Shown here piece after piece: positions 57,420 to 61,606 of a stretch of DNA of 64,000 nt. The notes beneath the pieces were generated by a model. The model was given only the letters and a program-made list of their open reading frames with translations, searched no databases and was not told the DNA's origin. A program made the translations under genes and the position numbers. Each line of letters starts with the position of its first letter. Position 1 is the stretch's first letter. The DNA is from Halogranum rubrum (GTDB lineage Archaea > Halobacteriota > Halobacteria > Halobacteriales > Haloferacaceae), in NCBI RefSeq assembly GCF_900114455.1, contig NZ_FOTC01000006.1, positions 62,001-126,000 on the forward strand. The letters are read 5' to 3'.

Positions 57420-59528
57420 TCATCCCTCTCCAAATGTCTGCAACGAGATATCCTTATAGTCCGCTAAATACTGGGTGATATCTGCTTCACGCCACCCAAG
57501 CGGTGAGAGGACGCTTTCTGCGGCACGAATCAACTGCTTTCGATAAAACTCGATGTCGTACTCCTCAACCCCTTCTGTGGCGAGCGCAACACGGTCCGCT
57601 GTCTGCTTGCTATCATCGACGACGACATAGTCAACGTTCTGTCCCGGATTCCGACACAGCCCACGAGTCTCTGCGCGTTCCAACGCAGCGACGTTCCGCG
57701 TGGTCCGTGTATACTCATCGAGTGGTTTCGAGACACGATTTGTGATGACTAACTCCGATACGTCGAGAGTGCCAGCCTGCAACCGCTGGAGCCACCGCTT
57801 CAGTTGCTCACACACAGCCTTTACATCACGGTGTTCGTCGAGAGCCTCGATCATATCCTTCTGCGCAGTCGCGATGAACTGGGGGGTACTGCGCTGGCGA
57901 CATTCGATGCCGCGATACTTGTAGTCGTCCTCGGCAGCGACTTTGCCGAAGTATTTGGTGAGGGCGCCAGCCTCGGAATTCCGCAGTGGGACGAACGCAA
58001 TCCAGTCGTAGTGCGCCTCGTATTCCAATCGAATGCCAACGTCGGCGGTGACTATCTCGGTGATTTCAGCCAGTGGTGTCTGCTCTTCACCCTCAACAGC
58101 CGTCACCCACACCGAATCGACGATACCATGGACGACGCGCCAGCCGTTCGCTTCGAGTGTCTCCTTCGTATCTAGCAAGATTTCGCGAGCGAACGCGTTG
58201 ATTGCCTCGTGGCACTCGATCCGACCGAATTTTGCGTTCGAGAAGCCTTGATACCCGAAACACGAGACGAGGATCCACTTGATGGCGCTTGACCGGCCTT
58301 CTAATTCGACGATTCGTTCGGCGTCGTCAGTCTCCCGTAACTCGGTCTTCATCGTCTCACGGTCAGTGATGAGCGGTTCGAGCACGTCGGGGAGATATCC
58401 GCGTTCGTCACAGATACAGTATCCAAGGCCGGGAACATCCTCCCGACCAGCATGGCACTCACACCGAATTTTTTCAGGACTCACGTTCCGGCTCACGATG
58501 ATGTTGGGGTACAACGACGAGAAATCTAACTCGTGGACGTCCTCGTGTAGGCCGACATCGGGTGCGAACGTAAATCCGCCTCTGTCTGCTTCGTGGAGTT
58601 GCCGCATCGTCTTGAGCTGTTCGTGGCGCCACGAGTGCCACGGGACGAGCACGTTGCGACGCCGAGCCTCACGAATCTGCATCGCCGTGAGGATGGTCCC
58701 AATCGAGGCCCACGCCAGTTCCTGCAATGGCTTCCCGGACCGCTCGACGAGATCGATACAACCATCGAGATTCGACTGTGACCAAAAGAACGTGTTCGAA
58801 CGATCGACAATGGCCCGTCCCGGTACGTTGAAGCGAGCGGGCGAGTGGCCGACCCGCCCATAACTCGCGTAAGTTGACTCGCCAGCAAGTTGTTGCCACT
58901 CTGGGAGACGCCCTAACTGGAACTCGTCGAAATCGCAACTCTCGGCCGCTTGGTACAGTGCGGGCACCACCTCACTGGTGTTTAGCATCAGCACGTCAGG
59001 GTCAGTGTCTGTCACTCGCTGGGACAGCTTCGCGAGAACCGCTTCGGGGTCGCCTGACAGTCGTTCCTCATCAACCAGTAGCTTTGTGAGACAATCTGCT
59101 GCGAGGACCGACTCGTCAACGGCAAGTTCCATGACCGACAACTCTCGTTCAGGGATGGGCGATAGGTCTCGCTCCAGACAGTACCGGAACTCTCTGGAGA
59201 AGTCGACGTTGTAGAGGCGATAGTCGCCGGGCTTTGCCCATCCCGAGATCTCGTGTGCGAGCGTCGTCACGGCGTCGAGGCTGGTCACGTCGACGCGGAG
59301 GACGGACTCTGAGTCGTAGCGGAACCCGATACGTTTCTCAACAGTTCTCGCGTGGACGACGTCGGGATGGTCCCGGAGGGTCCCATAGAGGTCGACGAGA
59401 TCAGCGCGCCCGTGGACAGACACATAGAGCGTCGGCGTGTAGGAACTGTTACGGACGTACTCGGCCCCATCGTCGGTGAGCGTCCACTCAAGGACGTCGC
59501 CATCGCGGTAGTCGATTTTGAACGGCAT
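57420..59528 (-). CDS. polB2: family B DNA polymerase, PolB2 type
   Basis: A 702-residue family B polymerase. Motif A ELDFSSLYPNII (about 331), motif B KWILVSCFGYQGFSNAKFG (about 414) and motif C as GIVDSVWV (about 468) are seen. Motif C lacks the first Asp of YGDTDS but keeps the second, which is the essential metal ligand. The exonuclease part is degenerate (no clear DxE; LNTSEVVPAL where ExoII should have Asp). Archaeal PolB2 proteins carry such altered motifs and were thought inactive, though a crenarchaeal one is implicated in damage tolerance. It is last in an operon with a RecA-like gene. Confidence 0.9.
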   Translation of the reverse strand: MPFKIDYRDGDVLEWTLTDDGAEYVRNSSYTPTLYVSVHGRADLVDLYGTLRDHPDVVHARTVEKRIGFRYDSESVLRVDVTSLDAVTTLAHEISGWAKPGDYRLYNVDFSREFRYCLERDLSPIPERELSVMELAVDESVLAADCLTKLLVDEERLSGDPEAVLAKLSQRVTDTDPDVLMLNTSEVVPALYQAAESCDFDEFQLGRLPEWQQLAGESTYASYGRVGHSPARFNVPGRAIVDRSNTFFWSQSNLDGCIDLVERSGKPLQELAWASIGTILTAMQIREARRRNVLVPWHSWRHEQLKTMRQLHEADRGGFTFAPDVGLHEDVHELDFSSLYPNIIVSRNVSPEKIRCECHAGREDVPGLGYCICDERGYLPDVLEPLITDRETMKTELRETDDAERIVELEGRSSAIKWILVSCFGYQGFSNAKFGRIECHEAINAFAREILLDTKETLEANGWRVVHGIVDSVWVTAVEGEEQTPLAEITEIVTADVGIRLEYEAHYDWIAFVPLRNSEAGALTKYFGKVAAEDDYKYRGIECRQRSTPQFIATAQKDMIEALDEHRDVKAVCEQLKRWLQRLQAGTLDVSELVITNRVSKPLDEYTRTTRNVAALERAETRGLCRNPGQNVDYVVVDDSKQTADRVALATEGVEEYDIEFYRKQLIRAAESVLSPLGWREADITQYLADYKDISLQTFGEG

Positions 59529-59534
59529 GACTGG

Positions 59535-59804
59535 TTAGCGGAGCGTCAACGAGACGGCGAGTTCCTCGACCGTCGACTCCAAATCGTCGATTCGTTTCTC
59601 CTGTTCGAGTACGACTGAGACCAGAATCCGTACCTCGACCGACTGGTGATTCAGATAGCCTGCGGCATCGGCGTGTGCGCGGGCGTGTTCGAACAAGCGG
59701 TCAAAGTGATCTTGGTCGTGTCGACGGAGTGCACGGCGATAGGGGTGCCACCGCTCTTCGGTGGCCCGCAAGAGGTCTCGATAGGTTGAGTTAGTGCGAC
59801 CCAA
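59535..59804 (-). CDS. small conserved helical protein of the PolB2 operon
   Basis: An 89-residue acidic/basic helical protein (MGRTNSTYRDLLRATEERW..., then FDRLFEHARAHADAAGYLNHQ and a terminal coiled-coil-like stretch). It resembles a small haloarchaeal family that begins MGRTNPTYRD; function unknown. The start is TTG at 59804, supported by this resemblance, and gives a 14-base overlap with the RecA-like gene. Six bases separate it from polB2, so the three genes are one transcript. Confidence 0.7.
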   Translation of the reverse strand: MGRTNSTYRDLLRATEERWHPYRRALRRHDQDHFDRLFEHARAHADAAGYLNHQSVEVRILVSVVLEQEKRIDDLESTVEELAVSLTLR

Positions 59805-60468
59805 CGGTCGACACCTCCGGTTTCGTCGCTGCTGCAATGGCCGGATGACGGGTCTCAAGAACGCGCTGCCAGAACGCAATCGTCGTCTGGACGAGCCCAT
59901 CACCAATGGGATAGACCAGTGACTCGAATTCGTCGCCGACGAATCGGGGGCCGAACTTCGTCAGTTCACACGCAACGACGGCATCGACCTTGGCGCGGAG
60001 CGGCGCTGTGAGTACGTCCGTCCGGCACTGGGTCACCAAGATAGGGATTTCGTAGTCGGCTGCGAGGGTTCCAATCAACCTGGCTCCCGCCTCAAGCATC
60101 CGTTTGCGCTCGCCGCGTCTGAGGTCATCCGTGCGATAGAACGCATCGAACGATGGGAGGACGACAAGCGAAGTCTGTTCGTCTACTGTCTCAGTGAGGT
60201 CACGAAGCAGACTCTGATGTTGCCACGGCGTGAACGCCCGTGCGATGTGGACTCGGTCGAGCGTCCGCATACTCGGGGCGACCTGTGCGAGCGTCTGGGT
60301 CGTGCCGTGGCCCTTTGCATCGACCCAGACTGCCGGGCCATTCTCCAGAAGGATGTGATCGAGCACGAGCGATTGCAAGGCGCCTGTTGCACGCTGGTCT
60401 GCTTCGAGGAGCGTGACGCCAGCGTCGAGCGTCGGCAACTCGGGACTGTTGGATGGTCGGTGGGACAT
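59791..60468 (-). CDS. RecA/RadB-like protein with degenerate ATP loop
   Basis: A 225-residue RecA-superfamily protein. The core strand order is recognisable: VWVDAKGHGTTQTL at the Walker A position (no GKT/S), ARAFTPWQHQSLL as in RadA, a Walker-B-like SLVVLPSFDAFYR, and ILVTQCRTD. ATP binding is doubtful. It heads the PolB2 operon. RecA-like partners of damage-tolerance polymerases are known (bacterial ImuA with DnaE2), so an accessory role for PolB2 is plausible but inferred. The ATG at 60468 is preferred to the GTG three bases upstream. Confidence 0.7.
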   Translation of the reverse strand: MSHRPSNSPELPTLDAGVTLLEADQRATGALQSLVLDHILLENGPAVWVDAKGHGTTQTLAQVAPSMRTLDRVHIARAFTPWQHQSLLRDLTETVDEQTSLVVLPSFDAFYRTDDLRRGERKRMLEAGARLIGTLAADYEIPILVTQCRTDVLTAPLRAKVDAVVACELTKFGPRFVGDEFESLVYPIGDGLVQTTIAFWQRVLETRHPAIAAATKPEVSTVGSH

Positions 60469-60517
60469 CACACCTGTACCTTTCAGCAGGTGGATACATA
60501 GGCAAGACAGGGTTGGT

Positions 60518-60535
60518 TCCGATAGTTCCGATAGC
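60518..60535 (-). promoter_or_regulatory. tandem TATCGGAA element upstream of the PolB2 operon
   Basis: Read on the minus strand: CTATCGGAACTATCGGAA. It ends about 10 bases upstream of a TATA-like TATGTATC (near 60506), itself about 38 bases before the RecA-like start. The same tandem precedes the third orc gene. It also lies 6 bases beyond that gene's 3' end. Confidence 0.7.
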
Positions 60536-60540
60536 CGAAT

Positions 60541-61542
60541 TCAGCGGACTCGGTACGTCCGAGCACGCTTCTCGCCATCGGCGATGACGAGCTTGTAATG
60601 AACCATTTTCGAGAGGTAGTTTCGCATGGTACGCTTCGTCTTTGGATCGTCGACTTCGTCGGTGTATCGCTCGTAGAGTTCACCCGGATTCAGTTGGCCT
60701 TCAGTCTGTAAAATCTCGTAGAGGGCGCGTTGATGCTGGTTGAGTTTACTGACTGTTTGCTCCCGGACTTCGTCTTTCCCGCCGGGGATTGCCTCGTCGA
60801 GGATTTCGGTTGTTATTGTCTCTGTTCCCCGTTGGGTGGCCCGTCGAGCAGCGTTACGGAGGATGCCGATCGCGACCCGTGCGTCTCCCGCTGCAGCATC
60901 GGCGATTAAGGCCAGTTCTTGCTTTCCGATAGCGTTTTCCGATAATCCCCACCGTGCTCGGGCTTCGAGGATCGAGACGAGTTCGTCGAGATGGTATTTC
61001 TCGAATGGGATCCGAGTGCACGTCTGCAGCCGACTGGTGAGCCGGCCGTCCAACTGTGAGAAGAGGTCCTTCTCACGGTTTGCGAGGAGCACCATCGAGA
61101 CGTTGTGTGTCTGGTAGAGGTCGTACAGAACGCTTTTGTCTTCGAGTTGGTCGACTTCGTCGAGAATGACGACATATTGTGGGCCGTCATACTGATGAAG
61201 CCGTTCGAGGAGTTCGTCTTTCGGTGTCGATCGACGGTGGATATCGATCGTATTGTCGATGCCTTCGAGAACGCGATAGAGGACGCGAAAGCGGGTGTAG
61301 TCCTGCCAACAGTTGACGTATTGGGAGTTGATATCGAGGACGTTCTCGCGGAGTCGTTCGACTGTATACTGGGCGATACAGGTCTTCCCCGCACCAGAGG
61401 GACCGGTCAAGAGGGTGGTTTCGGCACTGTGACCGTCCATGATTGGGCGGAGGGCATTTGAGAGGTGGTTCACCTCTTGGTTCCGATGCTCGACCTCTCT
61501 GGGAGTGAACTCGGACTGGAGTACGCGAGCATCGGTTATCAT
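60541..61542 (-). CDS. third Orc1/Cdc6-like AAA+ protein, possible regulator
   Basis: A 333-residue Orc1/Cdc6-family ATPase: Walker A TGPSGAGKT (about 45), Walker B VILDEVDQL (about 125), LLANREKDLFSQLDGRL (sensor region), GDARVAIGILRNA lid and a C-terminal winged helix. It is shorter and clearly different from the two origin-linked paralogues. The ATG at 61542 has a TATA-like GTTTATCG about 30 bases upstream; the reading to 61749 is unsupported. It has no G-run origin boxes nearby, only the tandem TATCGGAA element, so it may regulate transcription. Confidence 0.88.
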   Translation of the reverse strand: MITDARVLQSEFTPREVEHRNQEVNHLSNALRPIMDGHSAETTLLTGPSGAGKTCIAQYTVERLRENVLDINSQYVNCWQDYTRFRVLYRVLEGIDNTIDIHRRSTPKDELLERLHQYDGPQYVVILDEVDQLEDKSVLYDLYQTHNVSMVLLANREKDLFSQLDGRLTSRLQTCTRIPFEKYHLDELVSILEARARWGLSENAIGKQELALIADAAAGDARVAIGILRNAARRATQRGTETITTEILDEAIPGGKDEVREQTVSKLNQHQRALYEILQTEGQLNPGELYERYTDEVDDPKTKRTMRNYLSKMVHYKLVIADGEKRARTYRVR

Positions 61543-61587
61543 ACGAGACGTGTTTGAGATGCAGGACGATAAACGGAAGCGGGTCGT

Positions 61588-61606
61588 TTCCGATAGTTCC
61601 GATACA
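61588..61606 (-). promoter_or_regulatory. tandem TATCGGAA element upstream of the third orc gene
   Basis: Read on the minus strand: GTATCGGAACTATCGGAAA. It ends about 13 bases upstream of the TATA-like box (about 61568-61575) of the third orc gene. Sequence, orientation and position relative to TATA match the copy ahead of the RecA-like/PolB2 operon. Confidence 0.7.

Follow-up and report, generated by a model that had tools for sequence, protein, structure and literature searches.

In the 64,000-nucleotide stretch of Halogranum rubrum DNA analysed here (the window), the PolB2 mutasome operon and the neighbouring gene for an Orc/Cdc6 paralogue are preceded by the same direct-repeat element, which, to judge from the sequences of related genomes, is a conserved promoter element tying the mutasome operon to the Orc paralogue across haloarchaea. 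We consider it probable that the RadA-like protein encoded at the head of the operon (iRadA) is a subunit of the PolB2 mutasome, that one element switches the operon and the Orc gene, and that the Orc protein is the most likely reader of this element, being autoregulated and probably acting as an activator after damage. No earlier report of the promoter repeat was found in the open-licence literature, a search that does not prove its absence, and the available text of the mutasome paper (PMC11791011) contains no mention of a shared promoter repeat.

All genes concerned are situated on the minus strand, in the order Orc/Cdc6-like gene, iRadA, PPB2, PolB2. The Orc/Cdc6-like AAA+ gene (60541..61542, 333 aa), the proposed regulator, ends 72 bp upstream of iRadA (59791..60468, 225 aa), for which the ATG start is used here and a GTG at 60471 is possible. 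PPB2 (59535..59804, 89 aa, TTG start, N-terminus MGRT) overlaps with its start the end of iRadA by 14 bp, and the B-family polymerase PolB2 (57420..59528) starts 6 bp downstream of the end of PPB2. The preliminary description had let the RecA-like gene head the polymerase operon; it is indeed the first gene of the iRadA-PPB2-PolB2 series, but it is preceded in the same orientation by the Orc/Cdc6-like gene, which has a copy of the promoter element to itself. The two copies of this 17-bp direct-repeat element, TATCGGAACTATCGGAA, are identical: the one in the orc promoter (61588..61604) lies 45 bp 5' of the start codon, and the one in the iRadA promoter (60517..60533) 45 bp 5' of the GTG and 48 bp 5' of the ATG. 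In both promoters a TATA-like box is found 14 bp 3' of the repeat (TTTATC at 61568..61573 for orc, CCTATG at 60497..60502 for iRadA).

iRadA has a predicted RecA-type fold in which Walker A and Walker B are lost. It contains a Rad51 domain (Pfam PF08423, E 6.6e-8; score 32.5 bits, cut-off 22), its alignment profile finds RadA in the PDB at E 1.5e-12, and its AlphaFold model (mean pLDDT 84.3) matches Rad51-family chains with Z 16.9-18.4 over 167-183 residues and an rmsd of 2.5-3.2 among the best 50 rows of the fold comparison, such that the RecA-like core seen earlier at 59791-60468 is borne out, also by structure prediction. The same holds for the lack of a usable Walker A motif: G-x4-GK-[ST] is absent from the 225 residues, and according to profile alignment and model the P-loop position corresponds to loop 24-29 (DQRATG, codons 60382..60399), between strand 17-23 and helix 30-42. 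The position of the Walker B Asp is taken by Pro105 (codon 60154..60156) in all 53 aligned sequences, that of the window included. The protein consists of the core only, without N-terminal domain and without the P-loop Lys, and its ATPase site is inactivated.

Concerning the stretch KGHGTTQT (residues 52-59, codons 60292..60315, 3' of strand 46-50), which the preliminary description had taken for the ATP loop, profile alignments and AlphaFold model rule out this assignment, since they place it after the second core strand. When a 53-sequence profile including the window is aligned to the genome's own RadB, iRadA ENGPAVWVDAKGHGTTQ comes to lie on SGGTAVYIDSEGLSLDR, past the P-loop helix, and the stretch falls on RadB YIDSEGLSLD (probability only 62%); in the profile comparison with the PDB (E 1.5e-12) it falls on RadA WIDTENTFRPE (GSVIWIDTENTFRPE), i.e., on the strand after the P-loop helix.

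A protein that has lost both ATPase motifs might be a decaying RadA or RadB pseudogene, and it would fit with this that iRadA exceeds PolB2 and Orc in dN/dS in all seven pairs compared and that its frame is shortened in one relative (L115). Yet the dN/dS values of these seven pairs (0.13-0.38; frames delimited by stop codons and filtered by windowed identity, possibly including a few non-coding codons) indicate constraint, weaker than in PolB2 and Orc, and many residues are invariant among the 53 sequences, which makes decay hardly credible. Against the two copies from the same genus dN/dS amounts to 0.23-0.25, rough values as dS is about 1; in the window pairs in general dS is near 1 or above.

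The polymerase gene at the end of the operon is assigned to PolB2 by Pfam DNA_pol_B and by NCBIfam NF004418 (1090.7 bits against a cut-off of 692). Its DxD motif reads IVD (HGIVDS), as in PolB2 of the 60 relatives listed, the first Asp being replaced, and its D(K/R) motif is located at D241-R242, D241 being invariant in 14 sequences. A start codon followed by a GRT-type motif is present in 109 of 128 PPB2 ORFs (GRT itself in 108; TTG-GRT in the window). The window accordingly contains an inactivated RadA homologue, a PPB2 of about 90 aa beginning with MGRT, and PolB2, on one strand in the order iRadA-PPB2-PolB2, as described for the mutasome. Among the relatives, the operon includes iRadA at 54 of 61 loci; at 33 of 61 the upstream sequence fetched contains an Orc frame in the orientation of the operon, partial frames being counted. 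Low-scoring matches of the PPB2 profile at these loci derive from overlapping frames and were left out.

Makarova et al. (2014, PMC4104785) had predicted a single operon of inactivated RadA proteins, arCOG07300, and PolB2, close to which many euryarchaeal genomes have an arORC2 gene. The names iRadA and PPB2 were given by Timinskas et al. (2025, PMC11791011), whose model, likened by them to Pol V, combines PolB2 and iRadA with three copies of PPB2; the mutasome as modelled in print is a heteropentamer in which PolB2 contacts iRadA via a Rad51-like oligomerisation motif. Furthermore, Berquist et al. (2007, PMC1906834) described polB2 of Halobacterium and H. marismortui as divergent to a gene of the Orc5 clade, and orc4 and polB2 as dispensable in Halobacterium. 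In Haloferax volcanii, polB2 (HVO_A0065) is situated close to a radA-like gene (PMC7776575). We regard the 225-aa protein as iRadA and hence as that subunit of the archaeal translesion mutasome with PolB2 which has a Rad51 fold but no catalytic role, the complex being taken from the literature as a predicted one. iRadA would hold the polymerase, most likely via a Rad51-Rad51-like interface, and could not itself cycle ATP.

Alternatively, iRadA might function independently of PolB2 and mediate recombination without ATP in the manner of RadB. Its best NCBIfam match is RadB (TIGR02237, E 3.3e-8), though with 33.6 bits far below the cut-off of 172.4, and in one genome (L307, G283:C1:1396830-1397480) iRadA is located 171 bp after orc, the only polymerase match found there being of the replicative type. 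We consider such a separate function unlikely in view of the 54 of 61 loci with iRadA in the operon and of the published models with a PolB2-specific interface (PMC11791011). In three further genomes, copies of PolB2 contain an in-frame stop or are in pieces (G082:C1, i.e., L093; G080:C2; G274:C21), pointing to occasional loss of the polymerase.

The organization of the locus corresponds to that of the PolB2 mutasome as known from the Dpo2 operon of Sulfolobus in gene order, in the inactive RadA fold, in the MGRT start of PPB2, in a PolB2 without the first Asp of DxD, and in the orc/cdc6 neighbour; no difference was found for the window proteins. Since the gene trio and its reading are already published, the mutasome analogy is right but not new. 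The preliminary description had drawn its parallel to the bacterial ImuA/DnaE2 mutasome and had considered it convergent: that a damage-type polymerase has a RecA-superfamily subunit without ATPase function is indeed published, but the published parallel is Pol V, not ImuA/DnaE2. Both E. coli Pol V (UmuC, UmuD', RecA) and ImuA-ImuB-DnaE2 share with the window a translesion polymerase that has a RecA-superfamily partner in one operon or complex; the polymerase, however, belongs to family Y in Pol V and to family C in ImuA-ImuB-DnaE2, whereas that of the window is a B-family enzyme, and in place of a C-family DnaE2 with ImuB the other operon gene is PPB2-like. The RecA of Pol V is an active ATPase. 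Searches of Pfam and NCBIfam gave no match of PPB2 to the UmuD or ImuB family, no ImuA-named model is among the NCBIfam matches of iRadA at E <=10 (HMMER filters drop most above 0.1), and the fold-match rows listed for iRadA are all Rad51-family, with no bacterial RecA or ImuA among them, unlisted families being possible. As iRadA and ImuA both have a RecA-type fold, convergence can only mean convergent recruitment. On the whole, the preliminary description is partly confirmed, having correctly sensed a system that was already described and misplaced one motif.

In the 4.57-Mb genome, exact copies of TATCGGAACTATCGGAA are confined to the two promoters of the window, and the weaker sites with 2-3 mismatches (nine, compared to five in the reversed control) are taken as mostly chance. 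Allowing at most one mismatch, 61 matches are found in 44 of the 392 genomes of the order, and none in the reversed control. The loci fetched for these 61 matches yielded 57 distinct near-exact sites, 28 of which precede Orc (21), iRadA (6), or PPB2 (1); the remaining 29 precede none of these by the test used, although one of them (L065) lies before a broken orc frame.

Further sites were observed in other surroundings. The genomes of family f7 (L069, L070, L163, L164, L174-L177, L179) possess near-exact repeats upstream of an apparent inverted repeat, judged by eye, and in eight of the nine f7 loci a tyrosine-recombinase-like ORF is situated within 900 bp of the near-exact repeat (the one ORF searched gave Phage_int_SAM_1 at E 0.0028, below the cut-off); these loci are possibly damage-induced mobile elements. 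At L192 the repeat precedes both an orc gene (2555, minus strand) and a divergent gene (2968, plus strand; MKTAAIDIETTG...), a possible further target, the first 90 aa of which have no Pfam match at E <=0.01. The repeat, in exact, near-exact, or general form, is also found 44 bp before other genes (L171:1977, minus; L167:2670, L169:2753, and L052:1500, all plus), among them two for proteins without Pfam match in the stretch tested and one for a PadR-like regulator.

In diverged relatives the element takes the general form YGGAA-N3-4-YGGAA. In 61 loci (406,214 bases) the operon strand contains 75 instances of this form, compared to 9 in the opposite strand (reversed control 0 and 1), and it is found upstream of 61 of 109 iRadA and 53 of 73 Orc genes (pooled, non-redundant), compared to means of 0.62 and 0.18 and maxima of 4 and 2 in dinucleotide shuffles and to 1 and 4 on the opposite strand, both sets of counts being partly circular because the pattern was built from promoters within the counted set. 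For 80 named loci, some of them from the same genomes, the numbers are 70 versus 18 on the other strand. The promoter count covered 330 bp (iRadA) or 160 bp (Orc) upstream of the estimated start and left out duplicate proteins, records with less than 160 bp upstream, and weak anchors (fewer than 12 of 41 residues for iRadA, fewer than 11 of 30 for Orc), such that very diverged copies are missing from it. The modal distance between repeat and TATA-like box is 14 bp (37 iRadA and 40 Orc cases); 16 iRadA and 5 Orc cases have no TATA-like box by the pattern used. Repeats of the N4 type number 84 in the set compared within and across loci.

The general repeat is missing from 48 of the 109 iRadA and 20 of the 73 Orc promoters, many of which belong to a second PolB2 clade. 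There, orc promoters have a single TTTCCGGAAA site, and iRadA promoters exhibit a shorter repeat at some loci and none by the pattern at others. The genome of the window itself contains a PolB2 of this second clade (58% identity), which is accompanied by a separate iRadA and, 6 kb upstream, by an orc (G000:C10:42716-52168; L131, L190). Two loci (L084, L087) miss the exact general pattern but have a near form. In operons in which no iRadA was found, consisting of PPB2 and PolB2 only (L081-L083, L088-L090), the element precedes PPB2, and it is also present before operons without an orc gene in the fetched stretch. A metagenome-assembled locus named Candidatus Nanohalalkaliarchaeum (L269) has the general form, too.

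The spacing to the TATA-like box, mostly 14 bp across loci, speaks against taking the repeat for an origin recognition box and the cluster for a replicon origin, a reading suggested by the adjoining Orc-family gene and by the GGAAA(C) core of the repeat, which is reminiscent of archaeal origin boxes. The window promoters (orc, iRadA) contain one repeat each, in a single orientation, and operons without a nearby orc carry the element as well. PolB2 and iRadA would then take part in an alternative replication start, as suggested by Makarova et al. (PMC4104785); according to the literature (PMC3528665), however, an origin has ORBs in inverted orientation on either side of an AT-rich region, and in haloarchaea a G-string in addition, and we regard this reading as very unlikely.

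The candidate for a protein reading the promoter repeat is the Orc/Cdc6-like protein itself. It possesses a Walker A (GPSGAGKT) and a Walker B motif (ILDEVDQ) and a predicted C-terminal winged-helix region, and it matches 2qby_A (E 1.8e-42) and Cdc6_lid (E 2e-13). Its AlphaFold model (pLDDT 90.3) corresponds over the whole length to the DNA-bound Orc1 of Aeropyrum (2v1u_A; Z 26.2, 329 residues, rmsd 4.6), and the top two fold matches are DNA-bound Orc proteins.

That this protein reads the repeat is suggested by four observations. Firstly, orc genes unlinked to a listed polB2 have the repeat at the same place, e.g., in G171 (C5), G194 (C2), G190 (C2), and G166 (C26). Secondly, in 19 genomes below the PolB2 threshold the script found the repeat at 14 of 20 orc promoters, which are independent of the pattern building; in one of the 14 (L302) it lies outside the printed promoter. 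When searched more sensitively, four of these genomes (G210, G080, G274, G283) turned out to contain remnants of PolB2 or an unambiguous iRadA, and in the other 15, in which neither was found, 12 of 16 orc promoters have the repeat; two of these 15 assemblies (G127, G121) are less than 80% complete, such that the absence of the mutasome is unsure for them. Other matches of the PolB2 profile in this set (positions 314-469, frames of at least 900 aa) were taken as replicative polymerases, and weak matches of the iRadA profile in G061 and G077 (E about 1e-6) as other RecA-fold proteins. A repeat kept at orc where no mutasome genes are found is as expected of an autoregulated factor and thus points to Orc as the reader. 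Thirdly, 180 of 392 genomes have both Orc and PolB2, 52 PolB2 only, 42 Orc only, and 118 neither (Fisher p 1.8e-24, uncorrected for phylogeny; copies are undercounted, as the two screens scored no more than the 2 and 5 top candidates of each genome). Fourthly, the repeat copies of Orc and iRadA are more alike within a locus than across loci (130 versus a permuted maximum of 129 in 5000 permutations), in a comparison limited to the 18 loci where each of the two promoters has a repeat of N4 spacing, and confounded by shared descent.

A repeat common to two promoters shows co-regulation, not the identity of the binder, and the element could be real and shared and yet be read by another transcription factor, the Orc gene being only a co-regulated target. 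In favour of this, the repeat is at times found before genes other than the trio, for instance that for the PadR-like regulator and the tyrosine-recombinase-like ORFs. Against it stand the 12 of 16 promoters in genomes without a mutasome gene found, the predicted winged-helix region together with the DNA-bound Orc proteins as top two fold matches, and the precedent of Sulfolobus, whose Orc1-2 attaches to an element in the promoter of its own gene (PMC9738581). Another factor is a possibility we take seriously, but a doubtful one; Orc is the reader favoured here.

The element bound by Orc1-2 of Sulfolobus is ANTTTC, and the protein controls damage-response genes (PMC9738581); the hexanucleotide is located at -44 to -39 of the upsX promoter (PMC5817253), and Dpo2 is damage-induced in Sulfolobus (PMC7390963). 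The haloarchaeal arrangement resembles this system in the Orc-family gene, in an element on its own promoter, and in the position of the element upstream of the core promoter elements; profile, model, and fold comparison agree in that the window protein is an Orc/Cdc6 AAA+ protein with a winged helix. There are differences between the two: the haloarchaeal element is a direct repeat of YGGAA, with GAAACG instead of GAAANT, and its binding and the response to damage are proposed. By eye, neither ANTTTC (DDRE) nor GAAANT is present in the orc promoter of the window, which has CGGAACTATCGGAAACG.

Another motif, TTTCACTTTCA, was reported at radA1 and top6B in a UV study of Halobacterium (PMC2556686). 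It is likewise a tandem repeat upstream of the TATA box, but differs from the present element in sequence and in the genes concerned. As a shared element it was rejected, being found at one orc promoter (one genome, L157/L271); there, an orc of this family (L157:1437, minus strand; L271:4793) has TTTCACTTTCA in its promoter instead of the CGGAA repeat. In the main text of the two Halobacterium UV array papers (PMC2556686, PMC1224876) neither 'orc' nor 'polB2' occurs, and the latter study describes no evidence of a classic coordinated SOS response.

One direct-repeat element, usually 14 bp 5' of a TATA-like box, would switch the operon and the adjacent Orc gene together. The Orc protein would most likely read the repeat as an autoregulated regulator and would probably activate rather than repress, given the site just upstream of the core promoter; in haloarchaea, the signal for this switch may be damage. 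That the mutasome and Orc promoters have the element in common is a hint that archaea may possess an equivalent of the SOS switch of bacteria. In its widest form the proposal would be a haloarchaeal SOS-like switch, in which an autoregulated non-initiator Orc/Cdc6 paralogue reads YGGAA-N4-YGGAA, 14 bp 5' of TATA, both before the gene encoding it and before the PolB2 operon, some lineages adding further genes including tyrosine recombinases of apparent mobile elements; we give this extended version about even chances.

The mutasome being already known, it is in the shared element and the proposed regulation that the novelty would lie. They address the question of how euryarchaea, which lack LexA, switch on their DNA-damage genes, and now that the box, two of its target promoters, and a candidate for the regulator can be named, the question becomes directly testable in haloarchaeal models possessing polB2 and orc. 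If the proposal is true, an Orc protein would preside over an error-prone polymerase operon outside Sulfolobus, and one group of the many haloarchaeal Orc paralogues would gain a role besides origin binding.
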